A stretch of DNA of 64,000 nucleotides. Source: Mediterraneibacter catenae (GTDB lineage Bacteria; Bacillota; Clostridia; Lachnospirales; Lachnospiraceae). The stretch lies in the NCBI RefSeq assembly GCF_008691045.1, contig NZ_VMSO01000001.1:248001-312000 (forward strand), read 5' to 3'. The notes below the pieces were generated by a model. That model saw nothing but the letters and a program-made list of their open reading frames with translations. It was not told the DNA's origin and searched no databases. Shown piece after piece: positions 28,710-53,686 of this stretch (its first letter is position 1; each line of letters opens with the position of its first letter). Made by a program: the position numbers and the translations under genes.

Positions 28710-28882
28710 AGATGTGAATTGTGAGCGCAGCACGGAACATTCCGGAGCTATCACAGCAGAGATTTTGACCGGTATAATTTTAATCATTTAGAAACAAAAC
28801 AAAAACATTTTGGAAATAATGAACAGCTATTGTGAAATCAGATGTGCATTTTGGTGCGGAACTTCATTCGAGGAGGAAGACT

Positions 28883-30037
28883 ATGCGCGGATTTCACATT
28901 CCGATATGGCGGAAGATGACTGCTAAAATAAAAAAAGTAAAAATGCCTGACCTGAGCCTGCAGGTAAAGATAATGCTGTACATTGCCGCCCTCGCCTGTG
29001 CCGTGCTGTCAATAGTCAGTATCACATGCGGGGGCATTTTCCCGCCGGCAGCAGAGTATGCGGTATATACTGCAGCCGGAATTACGCTGTTTGTGTCCTG
29101 TTTTTATTTGGCGGGGGACCTGGACCTGCTGAAGCAGAAGATCATGGAGCTGGCACGTTCGAATACACTGACCGCACGACTCACGGACGATATAGAATAC
29201 AGATCGGTTCTGTTTGCTGTGTGCGGAGTCTGTATGAATATAGTGTTTGCCCTGTTCAATGGCATCGCCGGATGGATGAGCCGGTCCGCGTGGTTTGGCA
29301 CGCTGTCCGCGTATTATCTGATCCTCGGGATGATGCGCGCCTATTGGATATTTCACAGTCAGGACAAAGTGAGAAACCGGGAAAATCAAAGGAGCAGCCG
29401 TGCCCCGGAGAGGAATATATGGCGCTGTTACGGCGTCCTGTTCCTCTTTCTGGCAGTCGTCCTCTGCGGGGCGGGAAGCCTTTATGTAAATCCGGAACAT
29501 ACCGCATGCGTGGCAGACGGTCCGGATTTCCCGGATGTATTTAAGCCTGTAGCATCAGCTCAGGCAAAAGCCGCCGGCATGTCAGCAGCGACCCTCTATG
29601 TCTATTATGATAATAAGGAGGATATGTTTCGCAAGGTTTACATGGATGTGAAAAAGCACATGACAGAGAAATGCAGCAGGGATATTGATCCGGAGGGCAG
29701 CGTAGAAGAGGCGGTCAGAAAACTCTGCGGAAACCTGCTTGACTATATGCAGGAATACACGGATGAATTTTTATTCATAGAACAGGCGTGTAATTCTCCT
29801 ATGACAACGGATGAAATGCTGGAGACGCTTGAACAATATAACAAAGACACGGTAAGGATTTTTCAGAGAGGGATAGAGGAAGGAATCTTGAAACCGGCCT
29901 CACCCGCTCTTCTTATCAGCTTTTGTTACTATCCGATCCAGCAGATTTTCAAAGAATGGCGGAAAGACAGATCCATGCTTCCCGATGTGGATTTTGATAT
30001 GGTCTTTCAGATGTGCTGGGATGCAGTCAAACGATAA
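28883..30037 (+). CDS. Chimera: truncated membrane protein fused to truncated TetR regulator
   Basis: A single 384-residue frame starts at ATG 28883 behind GAGGAGG. Residues 1 to about 205 form an uncharacterised membrane protein with helices at about 30-50, 60-77, 108-127, 138-155 and 182-200. From about 221 it becomes a TetR/AcrR protein: PVASAQAKAAGMSAATLYVYYDNKEDMFRKVYMDV (helices 2-3 and 4), then a full ligand domain ending at 384. The TetR part lacks its first helix and the membrane part seems to lack its last. A deletion joining two genes in frame is the simplest explanation. A membrane-tethered regulator is possible but unlikely. Confidence 0.75.
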   Translation: MRGFHIPIWRKMTAKIKKVKMPDLSLQVKIMLYIAALACAVLSIVSITCGGIFPPAAEYAVYTAAGITLFVSCFYLAGDLDLLKQKIMELARSNTLTARLTDDIEYRSVLFAVCGVCMNIVFALFNGIAGWMSRSAWFGTLSAYYLILGMMRAYWIFHSQDKVRNRENQRSSRAPERNIWRCYGVLFLFLAVVLCGAGSLYVNPEHTACVADGPDFPDVFKPVASAQAKAAGMSAATLYVYYDNKEDMFRKVYMDVKKHMTEKCSRDIDPEGSVEEAVRKLCGNLLDYMQEYTDEFLFIEQACNSPMTTDEMLETLEQYNKDTVRIFQRGIEEGILKPASPALLISFCYYPIQQIFKEWRKDRSMLPDVDFDMVFQMCWDAVKR

Positions 30038-33323: not shown

Positions 33324-34355
33324 TTAACATTGCTCAGCTATCGTATACAGCAGTTTCTCCGTATCCTCCCAGCCAAGGCACGGGTCGGTGATGGATTTCC
33401 CGTATACATGGTCGGTTCCGATCTGCTGGCATCCTTCTACGAGGTAGCTCTCGATCATAACGCCTTTGACAAGTTTCCGGATATCCTCATCAATCCGGCG
33501 GCTGTGCAGGATTTCTTTCACGATGCGGATCTGCTGTTTATATTTCTTGCCGGAGTTGGAATGGTTGGCGTCGATGAGAACAGCCGGGTTTTCCAGATCC
33601 CTCTCCTCGTATTTTTCAAGAAGAAGCTGGATATCTTCATAATGGTAGTTGGGGATCGTATTTCCGTGTTTGTTTACGGCCCCTCTGAGGATCGTGTGGG
33701 TGAGCGGATTCCCTTCTGTCCGAACTTCCCAGCCTCTGGAGATAAAATCATGTCCTCCCTGTGCCGCAACGACAGAGTTGAGCATGACGGAGAAGTCTCC
33801 GCTGGTGGGGTTCTTCATGCCGACAGGGATATCCAGTCCGCTGACCATAAGGCGGTGCTCCTGATTCTCTACGGAGCGGGCTCCGATGGCTACATAGGAG
33901 AGAATATCGGAGAGATAGTGCCAGTTGTCCGGGTAGAGCATCTCATCAGCGGCAGTAAGTCCGGTTTCTGAGATGGAACGGATATGCATATGGCGGATCG
34001 CAAGGATTCCTGCAAGGATATCCGGCTTTGCCTCAGGGTCCGGCTGATGGAGCATCCCCTTGTATCCCTCGCCCGTAGTACGGGGCTTATTTGTATAGAT
34101 CCGGGGCACAAGCACAAGGCGGTCTGCCACCTTTTCCTGTACCTTTGCCAGACGGTTTGTATATTCGCATACGGAGTCTTCATTGTCGGCCGAGCAGGGT
34201 CCTACGATCACGAGAAACTTGTCGGATTCGCCTGTGATCACGTCGCGTATAAGCCTGTCGTGCCCGGCTTTTATTTTTTTCATTTCTGCGGACAAGGGCT
34301 CCAGCGCTTTGACCTCGTCCGGAGAAGGCAGTTGTCTGATAAATGTAAAACTCAT
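33324..34355 (-). CDS. aroF: 3-deoxy-7-phosphoheptulonate (DAHP) synthase, type I
   Basis: This 343-residue cytoplasmic enzyme makes DAHP from phosphoenolpyruvate and erythrose 4-phosphate, the first step of aromatic amino acid synthesis. Visible signatures include FLVIVGPCSADNEDS, RIYTNKPRTTGEGYKGM, GARSVENQEHR, MKNPTSGD and DANHSNSGKKYKQQ with metal and substrate ligands. Its length fits the AroFGH class, which includes the N-terminal feedback region. GAGGGAAA precedes ATG 34355. No other shikimate gene is adjacent. Confidence 0.95.
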   Translation of the reverse strand: MSFTFIRQLPSPDEVKALEPLSAEMKKIKAGHDRLIRDVITGESDKFLVIVGPCSADNEDSVCEYTNRLAKVQEKVADRLVLVPRIYTNKPRTTGEGYKGMLHQPDPEAKPDILAGILAIRHMHIRSISETGLTAADEMLYPDNWHYLSDILSYVAIGARSVENQEHRLMVSGLDIPVGMKNPTSGDFSVMLNSVVAAQGGHDFISRGWEVRTEGNPLTHTILRGAVNKHGNTIPNYHYEDIQLLLEKYEERDLENPAVLIDANHSNSGKKYKQQIRIVKEILHSRRIDEDIRKLVKGVMIESYLVEGCQQIGTDHVYGKSITDPCLGWEDTEKLLYTIAEQC

Positions 34356-34416
34356 TGTATTTTCCCTCTGTAATTTTTATTTTAGTTCATTGGCGGATCG
34401 GCTGATTCCGCCGGAC

Positions 34417-34580
34417 GTAACAGTTCAGTCCGCGCCATTCGTAAAACCGCACTTCGTGCTTATTGCGGCTGACACCGTTGTTTTACTCATTGACAGACGC
34501 TCAACTCATCTGAATGCCAGTCGATGGATTCTTATGCGAACATAAATCCGTCGACTGGCATCAGATGGCTGAACCGTTAC
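34417..34580. repeat. Dispersed palindromic repeat, full copy
   Basis: A 164-bp element bounded by GTAACAGTTCAG and CTGAACCGTTAC. Inside are hairpin 1 (GTAAAACCGCA...TGCGG...GTTTTAC) and hairpin 2 (GCCAGTCGATGGATT / AATCCGTCGACTGGC with a CGAA loop). It is the best match to the copy at 53505. It contains no coding sequence. Confidence 0.8.
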
Positions 34581-34638
34581 CAACGGACAAATTATAATAC
34601 AGAGAAGGGAAATTGTCGATACTTCCGCATAAAAAGTC

Positions 34639-34667
34639 TTGACAGATGAGAAAAAAACGTTTATATT
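34639..34667 (+). promoter_or_regulatory. Promoter of the ATP-grasp operon
   Basis: TTGACA (34639-34644), a 17-base spacer and TATATT (34662-34667) give a near-consensus promoter. The implied start near 34674 leaves a leader of about 205 bases. Confidence 0.8.
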
Positions 34668-34680
34668 AACACCCATAGCA

Positions 34681-34714
34681 AGGGCGCTTGATCATTTGGT
34701 CAAGTGTCCTTTTT
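34681..34714 (+). terminator. First leader hairpin with U-run
   Basis: AGGGCGCTTGA pairs with TCAAGTGTCCT (two G-U pairs) and is followed by TTTT. It begins only about 8 bases after the predicted transcription start. Confidence 0.6.
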
Positions 34715-34758
34715 ACATATATATGAATAAAGGACCGTCCTCAGGCGGTCAGGAGACA

Positions 34759-34806
34759 AAGGCGTTTCTTCTGCTGTATGGTGCAGTGCATAGGAACGTC
34801 TTTTTT
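34759..34806 (+). terminator. Second leader hairpin with six-T run
   Basis: AAGGCGTTTC (34759-34768) pairs with GGAACGTCTT (34793-34802), with an inner CTGC/GCAG step, and runs into six T. It lies 70 bases before the first gene, so read-through must be controlled or the terminator must be leaky. The leader as a whole matches no riboswitch class I know. Confidence 0.6.
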
Positions 34807-34878
34807 GTTTATAGGAAACTCCGTTCCGCGGACAGCAGGCCGGGCGGGGATTTGATTTATGTCAGGAGGAAACACAGC

Positions 34879-36201
34879 ATGAAAGAACTGGTAGAACACA
34901 CAGAAGGGATCAACCGGCTGATGGCGCGGTACGGCGTCAAATTCGGGATTTATAAGGGCGGTGAATTCCACGAGCAGCTCTTTCCGTTCGACGCGATCCC
35001 GAGGGTCATCACCCATGATGATTTTCAGCAGCTTGAAAAAGGCCTGATCCAGCGGGTAGACGCGCTGAATCTGTTCCTTAATGATATATACAGTGAGAAG
35101 AAAATCATAAAAGACGGCGTTATACCGGAAGAATTTGTATTTATTTCCTCCGGTTATCTGCCGCAGTGTGAGGGCATCACGCCACCGAAAAACATATACA
35201 GCCACATATCAGGTATCGATCTGGTGCTTGGAAAAGACGGAGAATGGTACATACTGGAGGACAACTTACGGATTCCTTCCGGCGCATCCTATCCCATGAT
35301 CGCCAGAGAGATATGCAGAAGAGTATCGCCTGCTACATTCAGCAACAACTCTGTTGTAGATAACAGGAACTATGCAGCAATGCTGCGGCAGACCATGGAC
35401 TGGGTGAATACCGGCGGGATTCCGGTCATCATGACGCCGGGGCGCTACAATGCGGCATACTTTGAGCACTCCTATCTGGCGGAGAGAACGGGCAGCGAGC
35501 TTGCCACCTGCACGGATCTGTTTGTGGAAGACAATTACCTGTATTACAGGGATTACCGGGAGAAGAAACAGAAAGTGGGAGTGATCTACCGGAGGATCTC
35601 GGACGAATATCTGGACCCCATGACATTTAATCCGGAATCGCTGATCGGCATCCCGAACATTATGGACGTGTACCGCAGCGGAAATGTGGCTATTGTGAAT
35701 GCTCCGGGAAACGGAGTGGCTGACGATAAGGGCATCTATTATTTCGTTCCCAAAATGATCCGATATTATCTGGATCAGGAGCCGATCCTCAAAAATGCCC
35801 CGACTTATCTGCCGTTCTACGATGAGGACAGAAAATATGTGCTCGACAATCTGGAAAAGCTGGTTGTCAAGGATGTGGCGGAAGCCGGGGGATACGGCGT
35901 GATCTTCGGAAATGAGCTGAGCAGCGAGAAGCTCTCGGAGATGAAGAAACTGATCGAGAAAGAATCCAGACGTTTCATTGCCCAGGAAGTCGTGGATTTT
36001 CAAGATATGGAAGTCATGGAAGGAGAGGACAGAGTGCTCAGGAAAGCAGATCTCCGGGCGTTTGTCCTGTCAGGTGAAACGACAAAGGTATGGCCCAGCG
36101 GCCTTACCAGATTTTCGAGGAATGCGGATTCATTTGTGGTGAATTCATCACAGGGAGGAGGATTTAAAGACACATGGGTATTATCTCAATGGAAAAAGTA
36201 G
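34879..36201 (+). CDS. Circularly permuted ATP-grasp protein
   Basis: The 440-residue predicted amide ligase has YGVKFGIYKGGEFHEQLFPFDAIPRVIT at the N-terminus, IDLVLGKDGEWYILEDNLRIPSG, VVDNRNY and GGIPVIMTPG. VDVYRSGNVAIVNAPGNGVADDKG-like and VVKDVAEAGGYGVIFG segments follow. Together they are typical of the CP_ATPgrasp type 2 family, predicted by comparative genomics to join amino acids or peptides using ATP. ATG 34879 follows AGGAGGA. The open frame back to 34639 runs through the promoter and leader hairpins and is not coding. The next gene begins 28 bases before its stop. Confidence 0.9.
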   Translation: MKELVEHTEGINRLMARYGVKFGIYKGGEFHEQLFPFDAIPRVITHDDFQQLEKGLIQRVDALNLFLNDIYSEKKIIKDGVIPEEFVFISSGYLPQCEGITPPKNIYSHISGIDLVLGKDGEWYILEDNLRIPSGASYPMIAREICRRVSPATFSNNSVVDNRNYAAMLRQTMDWVNTGGIPVIMTPGRYNAAYFEHSYLAERTGSELATCTDLFVEDNYLYYRDYREKKQKVGVIYRRISDEYLDPMTFNPESLIGIPNIMDVYRSGNVAIVNAPGNGVADDKGIYYFVPKMIRYYLDQEPILKNAPTYLPFYDEDRKYVLDNLEKLVVKDVAEAGGYGVIFGNELSSEKLSEMKKLIEKESRRFIAQEVVDFQDMEVMEGEDRVLRKADLRAFVLSGETTKVWPSGLTRFSRNADSFVVNSSQGGGFKDTWVLSQWKK

Positions 36202-36848
36202 ATCATCTGTACTGGCTCGGACGCTATACAGAGAGAGTTTATACAACGCTGCGGGTGTTCTTTCATATCTATGACAAAATGATCGAACAGCCGGAAGGAA
36301 TTTATGCGAAATACTGCGAAAGACTGAATATCCCGAATATCTATACATCCAACCGGCAGTTCGTCATGTCATATCTTTTCAATGAAGACAATCCGGATTC
36401 TCTGCGCTCCAATATGGAACGTGCCTATGATAATGCAGTGGTACTCAGAGATGAGCTGAGCACCACGGTACTTTCCTATGTACACCTTGCAGTGGGGGCT
36501 TTTGAGGGATGCAGGAAAACGACGGCCCCGCTTCTCGAACTGCAGCAGGTGATCGATGATCTGCTCGCTTTCTGGGGAGGAGCAGACGATTACGTGGAAC
36601 AGGAGGACTGCCGCAATATCCTCAAATGCGGGAAATATGTAGAGCGGCTTGACCTCTGCATGCGGCTTGATTATCATACGGAAAATCTGGAAAAAGAGTA
36701 CAGAAAACTGTGTAACAGGCTTGGAAAAACAAATCTGGTTTACCATGAGGCAAGTCTGAACCGTCTGGAAGAGATCATACTGCGGGAGGAGCATCCGGAG
36801 CAGTACTACAGGGAAGCGCTGGGGTGCCTGGGTGCTCTGCTGGCATAG
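36174..36848 (+). CDS. Alpha-E domain protein
   Basis: The 224-residue all-helical protein starts with the family hallmark DHLYWLGRYTERVYTTLR and contains NPDSLRSNMERAYDNAVVLRDELS, a characteristic run with conserved E-R and N-A pairs. Alpha-E proteins almost always accompany circularly permuted ATP-grasp and transglutaminase genes, and are thought to work with them in making or modifying a peptide. It overlaps the ATP-grasp gene by 28 bases. Confidence 0.9.
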   Translation: MGIISMEKVDHLYWLGRYTERVYTTLRVFFHIYDKMIEQPEGIYAKYCERLNIPNIYTSNRQFVMSYLFNEDNPDSLRSNMERAYDNAVVLRDELSTTVLSYVHLAVGAFEGCRKTTAPLLELQQVIDDLLAFWGGADDYVEQEDCRNILKCGKYVERLDLCMRLDYHTENLEKEYRKLCNRLGKTNLVYHEASLNRLEEIILREEHPEQYYREALGCLGALLA

Positions 36849-36886
36849 GTGGCCGATTTACAGCTGGCCAATTTAGAGGCTTGATT

Positions 36887-37771
36887 ATGAGAAAATTAAA
36901 ATTTGAGTATAGTATGGAACTGAAATTTTCATCTCCGGTGAGCAGACATTATTTTGCACTGCGCTGCGTCCCCGGGGATTCTTTGCGGCAGAAGATCACG
37001 CTGACCGAATGCCGTGTGAGTCCTGCCGATTACACAAGTGCGGATAAAGACGGATTCGGGAACCTGAAGATCAGCGGAGGCTGCCGGAGATTACATGATA
37101 TGTTCAGCTATTATGTCGCGGGCACAGCCGTTGTGCAGGGAATGATCGTGCAGAAATGTCCTCTTCATCCCATGTACCGGTATCCGTCTAAGTATACTGA
37201 ACCCGGACCGGAGATTACTTCATTTGCAGAGAAAGTGTCACAGAAGTGCAAAAGACAGGGAGCAGAGACGGCTATGGACAGGGCAGTGTGCGCCATGCAT
37301 GATCTGTATATCCGTTTTCAATATATCCCTGGTGTGACGGATATAGGAACGACTGCAGAGCAGGCGCTCATGCAGGGAAAGGGCGTATGTCAGGACTATG
37401 CCCATATCATGATCGCAGTGATGCGCAGGATGGGAATCCCGGCACGGTATGTAAACGGTCTGATGATCGGGGAGGGAGCCACCCATGCGTGGGTGGAAAT
37501 TTATACGGACGGCGGCTGGTACGGTCTGGACCCGACAAATGACCTGTATATCGATGATTACTATATCAAGCTCGCTCACGGGCGGGATTACGCGGACTGC
37601 GTGGTAGACAAAGGAATCTTTCTGGGAAATGCATCTCAGGAACAGAAAATATATGTGAATGTGGAGGAAATCAGTGATGGTAGAGACAGTAGTGTCAATG
37701 GAACTGCCGGTGGACGAGAAGCTGACGATCCGGAAAAACCGGATCATGCCGGCACATCCTACAGGGGATGA
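36887..37771 (+). CDS. Transglutaminase-like cysteine protease
   Basis: The protein has 294 residues. The catalytic triad is visible as GKGVCQDYAH (Cys168), GATHAWVEIY (His200) and GLDPTND (Asp215). The N-terminal beta domain with a YVAGTAVVQ segment matches the bacterial transglutaminase N-terminal domain. There is no signal peptide, so it acts in the cytoplasm. It is expected to cleave or transfer a peptide amide bond, possibly on the product of the ATP-grasp/alpha-E pair. ATG 36887 has only a weak AGAGG site. The gene end overlaps the next gene by 95 bases. Confidence 0.88.
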   Translation: MRKLKFEYSMELKFSSPVSRHYFALRCVPGDSLRQKITLTECRVSPADYTSADKDGFGNLKISGGCRRLHDMFSYYVAGTAVVQGMIVQKCPLHPMYRYPSKYTEPGPEITSFAEKVSQKCKRQGAETAMDRAVCAMHDLYIRFQYIPGVTDIGTTAEQALMQGKGVCQDYAHIMIAVMRRMGIPARYVNGLMIGEGATHAWVEIYTDGGWYGLDPTNDLYIDDYYIKLAHGRDYADCVVDKGIFLGNASQEQKIYVNVEEISDGRDSSVNGTAGGREADDPEKPDHAGTSYRG

Positions 37772-38654
37772 AAAGAGGATCGCGATCGTGACGGGGACTC
37801 ACGGAGATGAGCTGGAAGGCCAGTTCGTGTGTTATGAGCTGCTCAGAAGGCTGAAGGCGGAGCCGGGATATCTGAAAGGAATTGTGGACGTCTATCCGGC
37901 GCTTAATCCTCTGGGGATCGATTCGATCACGAGAGGAATTCCCATGTTTGATCTGGATATGAACCGGATTTTCCCGGGCAATGAGGAAGGCCCTATGATG
38001 GAGTCTGTCGTGTACGGGCTCATGGAAGACCTGAAAGGCGCAGATCTGTGCGTGGATATCCATGCCAGCAATATTTTTCTGATGGAGCTGCCTCAGGTGC
38101 GGATCAATGAGCTCACGGCGGAAACCCTTGTCCCTCTTGCAAAGAAGATCAATGTAGATTTTGTGTGGGTCCATGCGTCGGCCACAGTTCTTGAGTCCAC
38201 TCTTGCTTACAGTCTGAACAGTATCGGAACCCCCACACTGGTCGTTGAGATGGGTGTAGGTATGCGGATCACGAAAGAATACGGATATCAGCTCGTGGAA
38301 GGAATCCTGAATGTGATGAAGGAACTGGGTGTCTGGGAAGGCGATGTGGGAGAAGTACGGACTCCCATCGTATCTACGGACCGGGAGGTGGGATACCTGA
38401 ACGCGGACGGTGCAGGGATCTATGTGCCCCATGTAAAGATCGGCGAACAGGTAGAAGAGGGAACGCTTCTTGGCGAGATCTTAAATCCTCTGACCGGGGA
38501 TGTGGAGCAGTCGGTGACAGCGCCGATCTCAGGACTGGTATTTACGAGAAGAGAGTATCCGGTCGTTTACAGCGGTTCACTGCTGGGACGGATACTTGGC
38601 AGCAGCGACAAAGAAAAGGAGGCGGATGATAATGCGGAAGACGGAAATATATAA
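37677..38654 (+). CDS. M14/AstE-family metallo-amidohydrolase
   Basis: The 325-residue protein is of the succinylglutamate desuccinylase/aspartoacylase class. Zinc ligands are intact in TGTHGDELEGQF (His42, Glu45) and CVDIHAS (His129). MNRIFPGNEEG and LVVEMGVGMRI form the rest of the pocket. The C-terminal barrel (VEEGTLLGEILNPLTGDVEQ) resembles a lipoyl-like cap. It hydrolyses an N-acyl or peptide-like amide. GGAGGAAA precedes ATG 37677. It overlaps the genes on both sides. Confidence 0.88.
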   Translation: MVETVVSMELPVDEKLTIRKNRIMPAHPTGDEKRIAIVTGTHGDELEGQFVCYELLRRLKAEPGYLKGIVDVYPALNPLGIDSITRGIPMFDLDMNRIFPGNEEGPMMESVVYGLMEDLKGADLCVDIHASNIFLMELPQVRINELTAETLVPLAKKINVDFVWVHASATVLESTLAYSLNSIGTPTLVVEMGVGMRITKEYGYQLVEGILNVMKELGVWEGDVGEVRTPIVSTDREVGYLNADGAGIYVPHVKIGEQVEEGTLLGEILNPLTGDVEQSVTAPISGLVFTRREYPVVYSGSLLGRILGSSDKEKEADDNAEDGNI

Positions 38655-39567
38655 GCTGGGATCACCGTACCGGGAGGATCTCACGATCAGCGGCTATACC
38701 TTCGGACATGGGCGTAAATCAGCGTGTATCGTGGGAAGCATCCGGGGAAATGAAATACAGCAGCTCTACGTCTGCTCCCAGATCGTAAGGAAGCTGGAAG
38801 AGCTTGAGGCGTCTCACGCCATCGCCTCCGGTAAGGAGATCCTTGTGGTGCCTTCTGTCAACCATCACGCCATGAACATCGGCAAGAGATTCTGGCCGGT
38901 GGACAATACGGATATCAACCGTATGTTCCCGGGATACGATCAGGGAGAGACGACGCAGAGGATTGCGGACGGTGTGTTCCGGACGGTAAAAGATTATGAC
39001 TACGGCATACAGTTTGCAAGCTTTTACATGCCGGGAGACTTTATCCCACACGTCCGTATGATGGACACGGGCAGGCAGAATACTAGCCTTGCCGGGCTGT
39101 TCGGACTTCCCTATGTAGTGGTGAGAAAGCCAAAGCCTATAGATACGACCACACTGAACTATAACTGGCAGATCTGGGATACCAGCGCATTCTCCCTGTA
39201 TACGATGGAGACGGACTTTATCGACGAAGTGTCTGCTCAGCAGGCGGTATCCGCAGTGCTGCGTTTCCTGACCAGAATGGGTATTCTGAAATACAACAGC
39301 CATAACGGATACATCTCTACGGTGATCGGCGAGGAAGAACTGGCATCCGTGCGGACAGCTTCAGGCGGCATATACAGAAGACTGTGCCATCCCGGAGACG
39401 AAGTGCGGATGGGGACACCCCTTGCCGAGATCGTCCATCCTTATGAGGGAAATGTAATCTCTACAGTGCTTTCCCCGACAGAAGGAATTGTATTTTTCAC
39501 ACATAAAAAACCCCTTGTGACGGAGAATGAAGTAATCTGCAAGATCATACGCAGGCTGCATGCATAA
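38632..39567 (+). CDS. M14/AstE-family paralogue lacking two zinc histidines
   Basis: The 311-residue protein is homologous to the preceding gene along its length (NTDINRMFPGYDQGE, VRMGTPLAEIVHPYEGNVISTV). Where the first has T-H-G-D-E, this one has SIRGNE (Arg38, Glu41), and the later zinc His is replaced within QFASFYMPGD (127-135). It therefore should not bind zinc in the normal way. Possible roles are a substrate-binding partner or regulatory subunit of the active paralogue, or changed chemistry (inference). AAGGAGG precedes ATG 38632, and its start overlaps the previous gene by 23 bases. Confidence 0.85.
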   Translation: MRKTEIYKLGSPYREDLTISGYTFGHGRKSACIVGSIRGNEIQQLYVCSQIVRKLEELEASHAIASGKEILVVPSVNHHAMNIGKRFWPVDNTDINRMFPGYDQGETTQRIADGVFRTVKDYDYGIQFASFYMPGDFIPHVRMMDTGRQNTSLAGLFGLPYVVVRKPKPIDTTTLNYNWQIWDTSAFSLYTMETDFIDEVSAQQAVSAVLRFLTRMGILKYNSHNGYISTVIGEEELASVRTASGGIYRRLCHPGDEVRMGTPLAEIVHPYEGNVISTVLSPTEGIVFFTHKKPLVTENEVICKIIRRLHA

Positions 39568-39611
39568 CGAAAAAAGTGGGGCTGTCGGGAAATAGATAGT
39601 CCCTTTTTCGG

Positions 39612-39734
39612 TCAAGGTGATGATCCATATTGCATGTCCCCGGGAAGATTTGAGAAATTCAGTTCTTCTTTTGTCGGAGTAAACAGGATTTCAATTCGGT
39701 TCATGATTTCCAGATAACAGGCTTCTTTACTCAT
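39612..39734 (-). CDS. Possible 40-residue small protein
   Basis: An ATG at 39734 with a GGAAACGGAG stretch upstream opens 40 codons (MSKEACYLEIMNRIEILF, then TPTKEELNFSN). The amphipathic pattern and clean stop are coding-like. I do not recognise a family, and it could be the head of a lost gene. The rest of the 380-base gap holds the ROK promoter region. Confidence 0.35.
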   Translation of the reverse strand: MSKEACYLEIMNRIEILFTPTKEELNFSNLPGDMQYGSSP

Positions 39735-39912
39735 TTTTGTTTTCTCCGTTTCCTTCCTTAATACTGTATTGAAAATACAGAAGAACTGTGTCTGCGATAT
39801 GATGCTTTTATGAAATTCAAGGGAAATTGATGTGAATTCACGCTATATTTCCGAAGGATAGAATGCATTCCAGAAAATGCGTGACAGTTTTGAAAAAAAA
39901 ATATATAATTAT

Positions 39913-39934
39913 TTTTATTAAAGTAATAATAAAA
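39913..39934. promoter_or_regulatory. Palindrome at the ROK regulator promoter
   Basis: TTTTATTA (39913-39920)-N6-TAATAAAA (39927-39934) is a perfect spaced palindrome 14 bases before the ROK gene start. A related AT-rich site lies at the promoter of the dehydrogenase (41291-41318), in which TTACTTTAATAAA is the reverse complement of part of this one. Confidence 0.6.
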
Positions 39935-39948
39935 GTGAGGGATAACAA

Positions 39949-41100
39949 ATGAGACAGAATGCTGCCAGAGGACTGGAACCGAAACGCAGTAATAAGATCC
40001 GGACAGCAAAATTCATCTCAGCCAGGGGAATCACGTCCAAGACAGAGATTTCCGTAAGCCTGAAGTTGAGTATGCCTACTACGCTGCAGAACGTAAAAGC
40101 GCTGGTGGAGGAAGGGATCGTTGAGGAGACAGGAGAATACGAATCCACCGGAGGACGAAAAGCAAAAGCGCTGTCAATTTGCGGCGATGCAGGATATGCC
40201 GTCGGGGTTGATATTACGAATAATCATATTACCATGGTGATAGTAAATGCAAAGAAAGAGATAATGGCTTCTGAGCGAGTCAGATGTGTCTATGAGAACT
40301 GTACACAGTATTATGATTTTTTGGTGCGCGCAGTATCTGACTTTATAGAGAAACAAGGTGTGGAATTGACAAAGATTGCCGGAATCGGCTTCTCACTGCC
40401 CGGTATTGTTGATAAGGAGCAGAGCCTGCTCCTGCGTTCCCACACACTAAAAGTACAGAATGTAAGCTTCCGGTCTGTCGGCAATGCTCTTGGGTATCCC
40501 TGTGACATTGAGAATGATGCCAACAGCGCAGCCTATGCCGAGCTGGGAACAGCGGCAGTATCCGGCGATGCAGCAGAAGATGAAGAAACGAATGCAGTAT
40601 ATCTCTCTTTAAGCAATACGGTAGGTGGCTCGATCTGTTTCGGCGGACAGCTGTATTCTGGAGATAATTTTAAGAGCGGCGAATTCGGCCATATGGTGAT
40701 CGAAAAGAACGGCAGGCAGTGTTACTGCGGAAAGCGGGGGTGTATGGACGCCTACTGTTCAGCGCTGGTCCTTCAGGAAAATACAGACAGAAGTCTGGAA
40801 TGCTTTTTCGACGGGGTGAGAAAAAAGGAACCGGAAATCCTGAAAGTATGGGACAGATATCTGGATGATCTGGCGACAGCAGTGACAAACCTTCGGATGA
40901 TATTCGACTGCCGGATCGTACTGGGCGGATATGTGGGAGGTTATCTGGAAGAGTTTATGCATGAGCTGTCCAGAAAAGTGATGCAGTATAATAATTTCGA
41001 CGTGGACACGTCCTATCTCCGGACAGGAAAGTATAAGTTGAATGCCGCGGCGTATGGAGCGGCGTTAAAATTTATAGAAAGCATATTTGACAATATATAA
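39949..41100 (+). CDS. ROK-family transcriptional regulator (XylR/NagC type)
   Basis: The protein has 383 residues. The N-terminal winged helix (RTAKFISARGITSKTEISVSLKLSMPTTLQNVKALVEEGIV) is followed by a ROK sugar-kinase-like domain. That domain shows AGIGFSLPGIVD, IENDANSAAYAELG and the zinc-binding motif GEFGHMVI...CYCGKRGCMDAYCS. The DxGxT phosphate motif is replaced by VGVDITNN, so it binds sugar rather than phosphorylating it (family knowledge). It precedes the dehydrogenase/GPH transporter pair, which it very likely represses. Confidence 0.93.
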   Translation: MRQNAARGLEPKRSNKIRTAKFISARGITSKTEISVSLKLSMPTTLQNVKALVEEGIVEETGEYESTGGRKAKALSICGDAGYAVGVDITNNHITMVIVNAKKEIMASERVRCVYENCTQYYDFLVRAVSDFIEKQGVELTKIAGIGFSLPGIVDKEQSLLLRSHTLKVQNVSFRSVGNALGYPCDIENDANSAAYAELGTAAVSGDAAEDEETNAVYLSLSNTVGGSICFGGQLYSGDNFKSGEFGHMVIEKNGRQCYCGKRGCMDAYCSALVLQENTDRSLECFFDGVRKKEPEILKVWDRYLDDLATAVTNLRMIFDCRIVLGGYVGGYLEEFMHELSRKVMQYNNFDVDTSYLRTGKYKLNAAAYGAALKFIESIFDNI

Positions 41101-53504: not shown

Positions 53505-53666
53505 TAACAGTTCAGCACGCGCCATTCGTAAAACCGCACTTCGTGCTTATTGCGGCTGCCGCCGCTGTTTTACTCATTGACAGGCGCTCAGCACATCTGA
53601 TTATCAGCCGGCAGATTCTTATGCAAGCATAAATCTGCCGACTGATATCATATGGCTGAACTGTTA
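53505..53666. repeat. Dispersed palindromic repeat, full copy
   Basis: A 162-bp element bounded by TAACAGTTCAG and CTGAACTGTTA. It shares hairpin 1 exactly with the copy at 34417. Hairpin 2 (ATCAGCCGGCAGATT / AATCTGCCGACTGAT, GCAA loop region) differs at paired positions. It lies between the LacI gene and the ABC promoter. Confidence 0.8.
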
Positions 53667-53686
53667 CATTTAATGTAATGGAATTG

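Follow-up and report, generated by a model that had tools for sequence, protein, structure and literature searches.

ATP-grasp enzymes form amides. A ligase set composed of an ATP-grasp, an alpha-E and a transglutaminase protein is already known (Iyer et al., 2009, as cited in PMC5666114 and PMC6376114); PMC6376114 reports that the ATP-grasp protein of the Yersinia operon liberates phosphate from ATP and that Anbu, the hydrolase usually named with the ligase operon, was inactive on the peptides tested. CphZ is an AstE-fold isopeptide hydrolase that acts downstream of the product of an ATP-using ligase (PMC10206079), the zinc protease of the TldD/TldE pair is active only with its zinc-less paralogue (PMC5810440), and an ATP-grasp protein stands beside a peptidase in the RimK/RimB and RloC/RloA systems, where RimB binds and regulates RimK (PMC12239564). 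Here we analyzed a 64,000-nt window from the genome of the gut bacterium Mediterraneibacter catenae (Lachnospiraceae; contig NZ_VMSO01000001.1, positions 248,001 to 312,000, forward strand), in which an operon with the same three core families carries two AstE-type proteins, D with an intact active site and E with an inactive-looking one. D and E may form a two-subunit amide hydrolase serving the ATP-grasp amide-synthesis operon, with E as the non-catalytic ligand-binding partner; we favor this reading tentatively, as one that falls somewhat short of being probable.

Compared with the Anbu operon, the operon in the window shares the three core families and the presence of a hydrolase as a further member, and it differs in having an AstE-type pair in Anbu's place, a short alpha-E protein and no PF00227 match. 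The last family (proteasome/HslV/Anbu type) had no match in the host genome (3.18 Mb), whereas 10 of 14 control genomes were positive, and the pair could therefore occupy Anbu's hydrolase place. The likeness to TldD/TldE lies in the combination of a zinc-bearing subunit with a paralogue that lacks zinc ligands, although the fold is unrelated and the D-E heterodimer is a proposal. The RimK/RimB and RloC/RloA systems differ in that their peptidases are aspartic. Their ATP-grasp proteins are also of another type than that of the window. The ligase set and the arrangement of a ligase beside a regulating peptidase are known. An AstE pair of one active and one zinc-less member, the latter with a fixed Arg, and its zinc-keeping relative were not found described in the literature searched, in which Iyer et al. 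(2009) figures second-hand, so that they may be in print.

The operon comprises five genes on the + strand with short gaps or overlaps (34879-39567 of the window), as the sequence-only reading of this DNA had proposed, and its gene order is repeated in many genomes, far beyond chance. Gene A (34879..36201) encodes a circularly permuted ATP-grasp protein (amidoligase) of 440 aa, B (36174..36848) a short Alpha-E protein of 224 aa, C (36887..37771) a transglutaminase-fold protein of 294 aa, and D (37677..38654) and E (38632..39567) the AstE/AspA-type pair of 325 and 311 aa. Overlaps of 28, 95 and 23 nt join A to B, C to D and D to E, respectively, and B and C are separated by 38 nt. Below, L-numbers denote fetched homologous loci, G-numbers surveyed genomes and f60 one distant family, which we guess to be the heliobacteria. 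A matches CP_ATPgrasp_2 (PF14403, E-value 2.7e-138), and 159 of its 440 positions are conserved at a level of at least 98% among 83 rows; f60 and L221-L223 were excluded from the conservation alignment of A, B and C. The match of B to Alpha-E (PF04168, E-value 9.8e-20) covers profile positions 6-164 of 294, so that B is shortened, and two E-R pairs are conserved in it (E20 R21 and E157 R158). In C, which matches Transglut_core (PF01841, E-value 9.3e-21), the conserved residues Cys168, His200 and Asp215 presumably constitute the Cys-His-Asp triad. The assignment of all three genes to the ATP-grasp/alpha-E/transglutaminase amidoligase set, made from the sequence alone, was thus borne out. A natural fusion of a full-length Alpha-E domain with a transglutaminase (L223:4564-6465) adjoins an ATP-grasp gene in a stretch without D or E.

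Both paralogues match AstE_AspA_cat (PF24827, cut-off 25 bits), D with 82.9 bits (E-value 2.7e-23) and E with 44.8 bits (E-value 1.3e-11), and no further AstE_AspA match was found in the host genome. D has the full set of family residues, namely HxxE, the second His, DxNR and the general-base Glu (H42, E45, N96, R97, H129, E191); its zinc ligands His42, Glu45 and His129 are intact as previously read, and Glu191 is an addition to them. In E, the presence of Arg38 instead of the first zinc His and the absence of the second His were likewise confirmed, with Ala129 at the latter site. E also lacks the general base, Tyr190 being found there, and retains the family sequence and fold along with Glu41 and Asp94-x-Asn96-Arg97. 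We take the catalytic roles of these aligned positions to be those of the AstE/AspA family. A joint alignment of 44 rows (14 D, 14 E, 6 D and 6 second copies of the distant family, and 4 outgroup proteins) demonstrates the same pattern. The first zinc His is present in 13 of 14 D rows (Tyr in L034) and in all distant D, distant second-copy and outgroup rows, whereas all 14 E rows have Arg. The second zinc His is present in every row outside E, where it is replaced by Ala (7 rows), Thr (5), Pro (1) or Val (1). At the general base, Glu stands in every row of D, of distant D and of the outgroup, Tyr in 14/14 E rows and Met in 6/6 distant second copies. None of the 44 rows lacks Glu45 (Glu41 of E), Asp94 or Asn96, and Arg97 is missing only from one D. 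Judged from its sequence, E is an inactive-looking AstE/AspA paralogue beside an intact D.

It is very unlikely that E instead binds a metal via other residues (e.g., Glu41, His140 or Asp94) and remains active as a hydrolase with a modified design. Glu41 is invariant, His140 occurs in 123 of 124 rows, and six distant second copies keep the full zinc site, all of which would suit a metal-binding E. However, the counterpart of His140 in D is Gln140, which is no zinc ligand, none of the 20 aligned second-copy rows has the base Glu, and a fixed Arg at a metal-ligand position disfavors a cation. One E-type protein (L183:6672-8240) is fused to a methyltransferase domain (Methyltransf_11, E-value 4.3e-22).

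The Arg of E proved to be conserved across the clade when many second-copy proteins were aligned. After merging of identical copies, position 38 of all distinct rows is Arg in 117 and His in 6, all of the latter from f60, and is missing in one fragment; outside f60, Arg38 is therefore found in 117/117 rows with a residue there. One set of 80 loci came from a search with two short patterns and is biased for the Arg, which is included in one of the patterns. The family surveys, searched with E (150 genomes) and with A (397 genomes), are free of this bias, and Arg38 is present in all 29 E genes fetched via gene A alone (29/29), some of which may repeat species of other sets. The total number of invariant columns is 40 in 37 rows of E and 35 in 36 rows of D, and the mean column identity is 63% for E vs. 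57% for D. Several of the invariant columns of E are common to D, and others are E-specific and polar. In E rows with a residue outside f60, Arg38, Gln43-Gln44, Asp171, Asn176, Gln180, Ser188 and Tyr190 are invariant, and His140, Trp179 and Gln127 are nearly so, with few exceptions.

Ratios of nonsynonymous to synonymous divergence (dN/dS, NG86) point in the same direction. Only the comparison with L071 keeps dS below 1 in each of the five genes (0.11-0.23), and there the values are 0.012 for E, 0.024 for D, 0.036 for A, 0.094 for B and 0.197 for C. More distant comparisons, in which dS is near or above 1 and the values are rough, yielded 0.042 (L076), 0.037 (L078) and 0.034 (L084) for E, and 0.024-0.052, 0.058-0.122, 0.128-0.144 and 0.066-0.101 for A, B, C and D, respectively; several cells, and L086 entirely, returned no value. 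The ratio of E is the lowest in L078 and, in L084, the lowest among the three genes for which one was obtained; in L076, that of A is the lowest. The loss in E is not local, since Arg38 is found in 117/117 and 29/29 rows and the dN/dS against L071 is lower for E than for any of the other four genes. A locally mutated or decaying E, for which the zinc-keeping second copies of one distant family might be cited, is ruled out for practical purposes by the invariance of Arg in the other 117 rows, the 40 invariant columns and the dN/dS of 0.012 against L071. Instead, E keeps an invariant residue set of its own, and from these patterns the dead copy appears to have gained its own job.

Second copies that retain the zinc ligands, which the sequence-only reading had regarded as a sign of a local mutation, do exist in f60; they date the loss and do not make it local. 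The class to which G474 belongs was surveyed in 82 genomes; of the nine from f60, six carry such a copy (G474 = L181, G452 = L182, and L224-L227 in the other four), and all six keep the zinc ligands and have Met at the general base. The A-B-C-D-E order recurs in f60, far from the family of the window, and the distant second copies share with E the motif TDINRMFPGY followed by a GETTQRIADG-like sequence. In a tree built by a quick method with SH-aLRT (Shimodaira-Hasegawa-like approximate likelihood-ratio test) support, all D rows, including those of the distant family, fall into a single clade (support 99), and in the free search E and the distant second copies come out as separate groups. Constraining the latter two together gave a likelihood 6.6 higher than that of the free tree, whereas joining D with the distant second copies gave one 33 lower (p = 0.062). 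A common origin of the second copies, to which synteny, the TDINRMFPGY motif and the constraint test point rather than a strong branch, is not rejected and fits slightly better. Since Met stands at the general base of the f60 second copies and their zinc ligands are intact, the loss of the active site looks stepwise, with the general base going first and the zinc afterwards. The apparent progression that begins with D, passes through the second copies with zinc ligands and ends in E, where a new residue set has become fixed, makes a good test case for gain of function in a pseudoenzyme. It is possible, though doubtful, that in E an Arg-Glu pair has replaced the catalytic zinc and made a dedicated non-hydrolysing pocket for the operon product or the D substrate; E would then be the sensor or substrate-holding subunit of a ligase-hydrolase cycle, with a zinc-kept, base-lost intermediate surviving in the distant family.

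The genomic context of D was classed from fetched stretches of unequal length. Of the 122 distinct D rows, 69 have A-B-C, or no fewer than two of these genes, beside them, 42 are stand-alone, 8 are unknown (near a contig end) and 3 are partial. With the unknown and partial rows omitted and L150 dropped for a gap, the seven checked positions of D are intact in 69/69 operon rows and in 32/41 stand-alone rows, the remaining 9/41 being altered (Fisher p = 7.5e-5). This distribution fits a ligase-hydrolase couple, in that no D next to the ligase genes has an altered active site. An independent-pairs test of integrity against context had too few pairs.

Most of the stand-alone pairs belong to one clade of 33 E rows (30 stand-alone, 3 unknown; support 90), and the rest occupy a few other places. 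At 14 of the 38 stand-alone loci with >400 bp downstream, a purL frame opens on the same strand within 252 bp downstream of D-E, the open frames being 0-252 bp apart (L034, L047, L050, L051, L054, L055, L057, L059, L067, L070, L129, L130, L146, and L149). Three of these purL neighbors were tested, and all scored above the TIGR01857 cut-off. Both the single clade and the purL neighborhood would suit an independent amino-acid or nucleotide salvage deacylase formed by D-E, whose place behind A-B-C would reflect shared regulation and not one pathway. We regard this as unlikely, in view of the recurrence of the A-B-C-D-E order in far-off f60 and of the restriction of altered D sites to loci where A-B-C are absent. 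At four stand-alone loci (L034, L047, L070, and L127), D lacks the first zinc His and E is kept, so that both copies look inactive.

An ABC transporter of the polar-amino-acid type adjoins the operon in five loci (L035, L038, L061, L065, and L264), each with a binding protein that matches SBP_bac_3 (family-3). The upstream binding protein of L266 is of another type (SBP_bac_1) and was excluded from the transporter neighbors. Beside the stand-alone pairs, the transporter was found in 0/42 cases, with one weak binding-protein match without a permease in L045, the stretches differing in length. A cytidylate-kinase-like gene (PF13189) adjoins the operon in L032, L038 and L065.

Three surveys delineate the distribution of the system. 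In the first, 150 genomes of the window's family were searched with E and the rows were classed by reading. Some match was obtained in 43 genomes: an E-type gene in 35, counting that of the window, only a short E-like remnant in G025, and only weak matches of other kinds in seven. A D-type gene is also present in 33 of the 35 E-positive genomes, and a D-type match without E was seen in none of the 150. In the second survey, the same family was searched with gene A only, which was found in 51/397 genomes and 48/334 genera; the only other genome of the same genus, G768, had no A. Among 36 newly fetched A loci, 29 have both D and E downstream (in L270 only as broken pieces), three reach the contig edge before D (L245, L252, and L256), and four are without both D and E (L251, L268, L269, and L271), A, B or C being missing or cut in three of these four. 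Decaying operons are represented by L270:7535-10615, with broken pieces of A, C, D and E, and L271:2524-4012, with cut A and C. The third survey, of 398 genomes of the phylum with gene A, gave nine A-positive genomes including the window's own; G443, G486 and G397 carry D and an Arg-type E, and G452 and G474 (f60) carry D and a second copy keeping both His. In searches of plasmids, E retrieved 41 records and D 430, all of them with less than 60% identity, and among the ten matches listed for each query the identity was at most 27% (E) and 32% (D); where annotations were present among those listed, they read desuccinylase/aspartoacylase family or peptidase M14.

The coupling of the pair to a peptide ligase, as suggested by the sequence-only reading, stands in part: a conserved inactive-looking E beside an intact D, and a D unaltered next to the ligase genes in 69/69 rows, agree with it. 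Several observations weigh against a tight coupling and against the favored two-subunit hydrolase serving the operon. D-E pairs without A-B-C are common (42/122 D rows), and their substrate need not come from this ligase; three of the nine A-positive genomes of the phylum (G171, G368, and G318) are without D or E. E occurs without D in G061 (L039) and G124 (L062, a truncated E beside a cut A). Relatedness weakens the tie between integrity and context, as six losses are inferred on stand-alone branches, which make up 47% of the tree length (p ~0.011). The transporter is found at only 4/122 distinct D rows (3/69 operon rows and one contig-edge row) and at 1/36 further loci (L264). In the L076 comparison, with dS near or above 1 as in the others apart from L071, the dN/dS of A (0.024) is below that of E (0.042). 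Finally, E stays conserved at the four loci where His42 of D has been lost (Tyr or Gln in D), and hence E is not needed only for the catalysis of D.

The last observation, which implies a role independent of an active D, also favors a view in which the AstE fold of E serves as a new enzyme that works without metal or as an independent ligand sensor, Arg38, Tyr190, His140 and the TLNYxWQ/AFSxY residues making up a new active or sensing site. The 40 invariant columns in 37 E rows, some of them E-specific and polar, fit this view, as does the fusion to a methyltransferase domain in L183. Nonetheless, the absence of a D-type match without E in the 150 genomes, and the overlapping or abutting of the two genes in most loci, suggest a joint product, and the fold reveals no activity; such an enzyme or sensor is rather unlikely.

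AlphaFold models of the single chains have pLDDT (predicted local distance difference test) values of 90.7 for E and 89.0 for D, and both match the same solved chains, DoeB/EutE, 3cdx, 3na6 and CphZ, in agreement with the sequence profiles. DoeB/EutE, an N-acetyl-diaminobutanoate deacetylase that has the zinc motif in common with D, is the best solved match of D (PDB 6twm; Z 32.0, root-mean-square deviation 2.3 over 299 residues), 3cdx (31.1) and 3na6 (31.0) being about equal. For E, 3cdx, DoeB (Z 28.8) and CphZ are among the best solved relatives (Z 27-29). CphZ (PDB 8ein, 8eip), which hydrolyses the cyanophycin dipeptide beta-Asp-Arg, matches D with Z 29.1 and E with Z 27.0. Identity with these enzymes was rejected. 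Against the DoeB profile TIGR02994, D and E score 61.0 and 38.3 bits vs. an equivalog cut-off of 402.7, and against AstE succinylglutamate desuccinylase (PRK05324), E scores 20.8 bits vs. a cut-off of 170, with D not listed at an E-value of 0.001. The partner of CphZ, cyanophycin synthetase, is missing, as the best TIGR02068 match in the genome has 150.9 bits vs. a cut-off of 850. An anti-phage defence system was also rejected, since the five proteins matched 0 PADLOC families at an E-value of 0.01.

If D and E act as the favored two-subunit hydrolase, A (with B and C) would join a polar amino acid into an amide or isopeptide, and D would cleave this amide or its breakdown product. The operon would then both make and cut an amide, in line with the make-and-trim cycle put forward by the sequence-only reading. 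E would form a heteromer with D, its Arg38 presumably filling the former zinc site against Glu41, and the pocket of E would bind the same or a related ligand uncut, thereby setting the specificity, stability or feedback of D. AstE relatives free an amino acid from a small amide; candidate substrates are therefore few, and the AstE-type hydrolase version provides a tractable handle on the product of the ligase operon. Recycling of nitrogen or amino acids is the most likely role of the system. A nitrogen theme is suggested by the dependence of the homologous Burkholderia cluster (DUF404/407-DUF403-transglutaminase) on NtrC when nitrogen is limiting (PMC5491218), by the rise of Anbu in Pseudomonas putida short of nitrogen (PMC5666114), by marine metagenomes in which the domains of the ligase set track urea genes (PMC3597751), and by the amino-acid transporters beside some of the operons.

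An earlier start assigned to A, at 34639, was not upheld, as that TTG falls inside a promoter-like TTGACA-17-TATATT on the + strand (11/12; 34639..34667), found in a motif scan that gave 12 sites vs. 7.3 expected in shuffles and is weak taken alone. The start of A is placed at 34879, where an ATG is preceded by the Shine-Dalgarno sequence AGGAGG, because the Met of homologues sits near the same place and, as judged from frame lengths, the upstream frame is open for only ~15 codons in L078 and 2 codons in L080. A terminator-like hairpin followed by a T run lies directly after E (39578..39603, + strand), from a scan with 7 found vs. 4.2 expected in shuffles. The operon region (34300-40000) had no Rfam match above the gathering score. 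Upstream of the operon, and outside the operon proper, a palindromic element with 17-nt arms and an RNA fold z of -8.7 is located at 34495-34585 and again at 53582-53667. It is a dispersed REP- or MITE-like (repetitive extragenic palindromic; miniature inverted-repeat transposable element) repeat with 31 match rows in the genome at an E-value of 0.01, including itself and its own reverse match, and its copies are partly iterated at a spacing of ~166 nt. Farther upstream, an odd frame (28832-30037) consists of an N-terminal membrane-like part fused to a TetR regulator without the start of the DNA-binding domain, TetR_N matching only from profile position 23; it may be either a deletion junction or an assembly effect.

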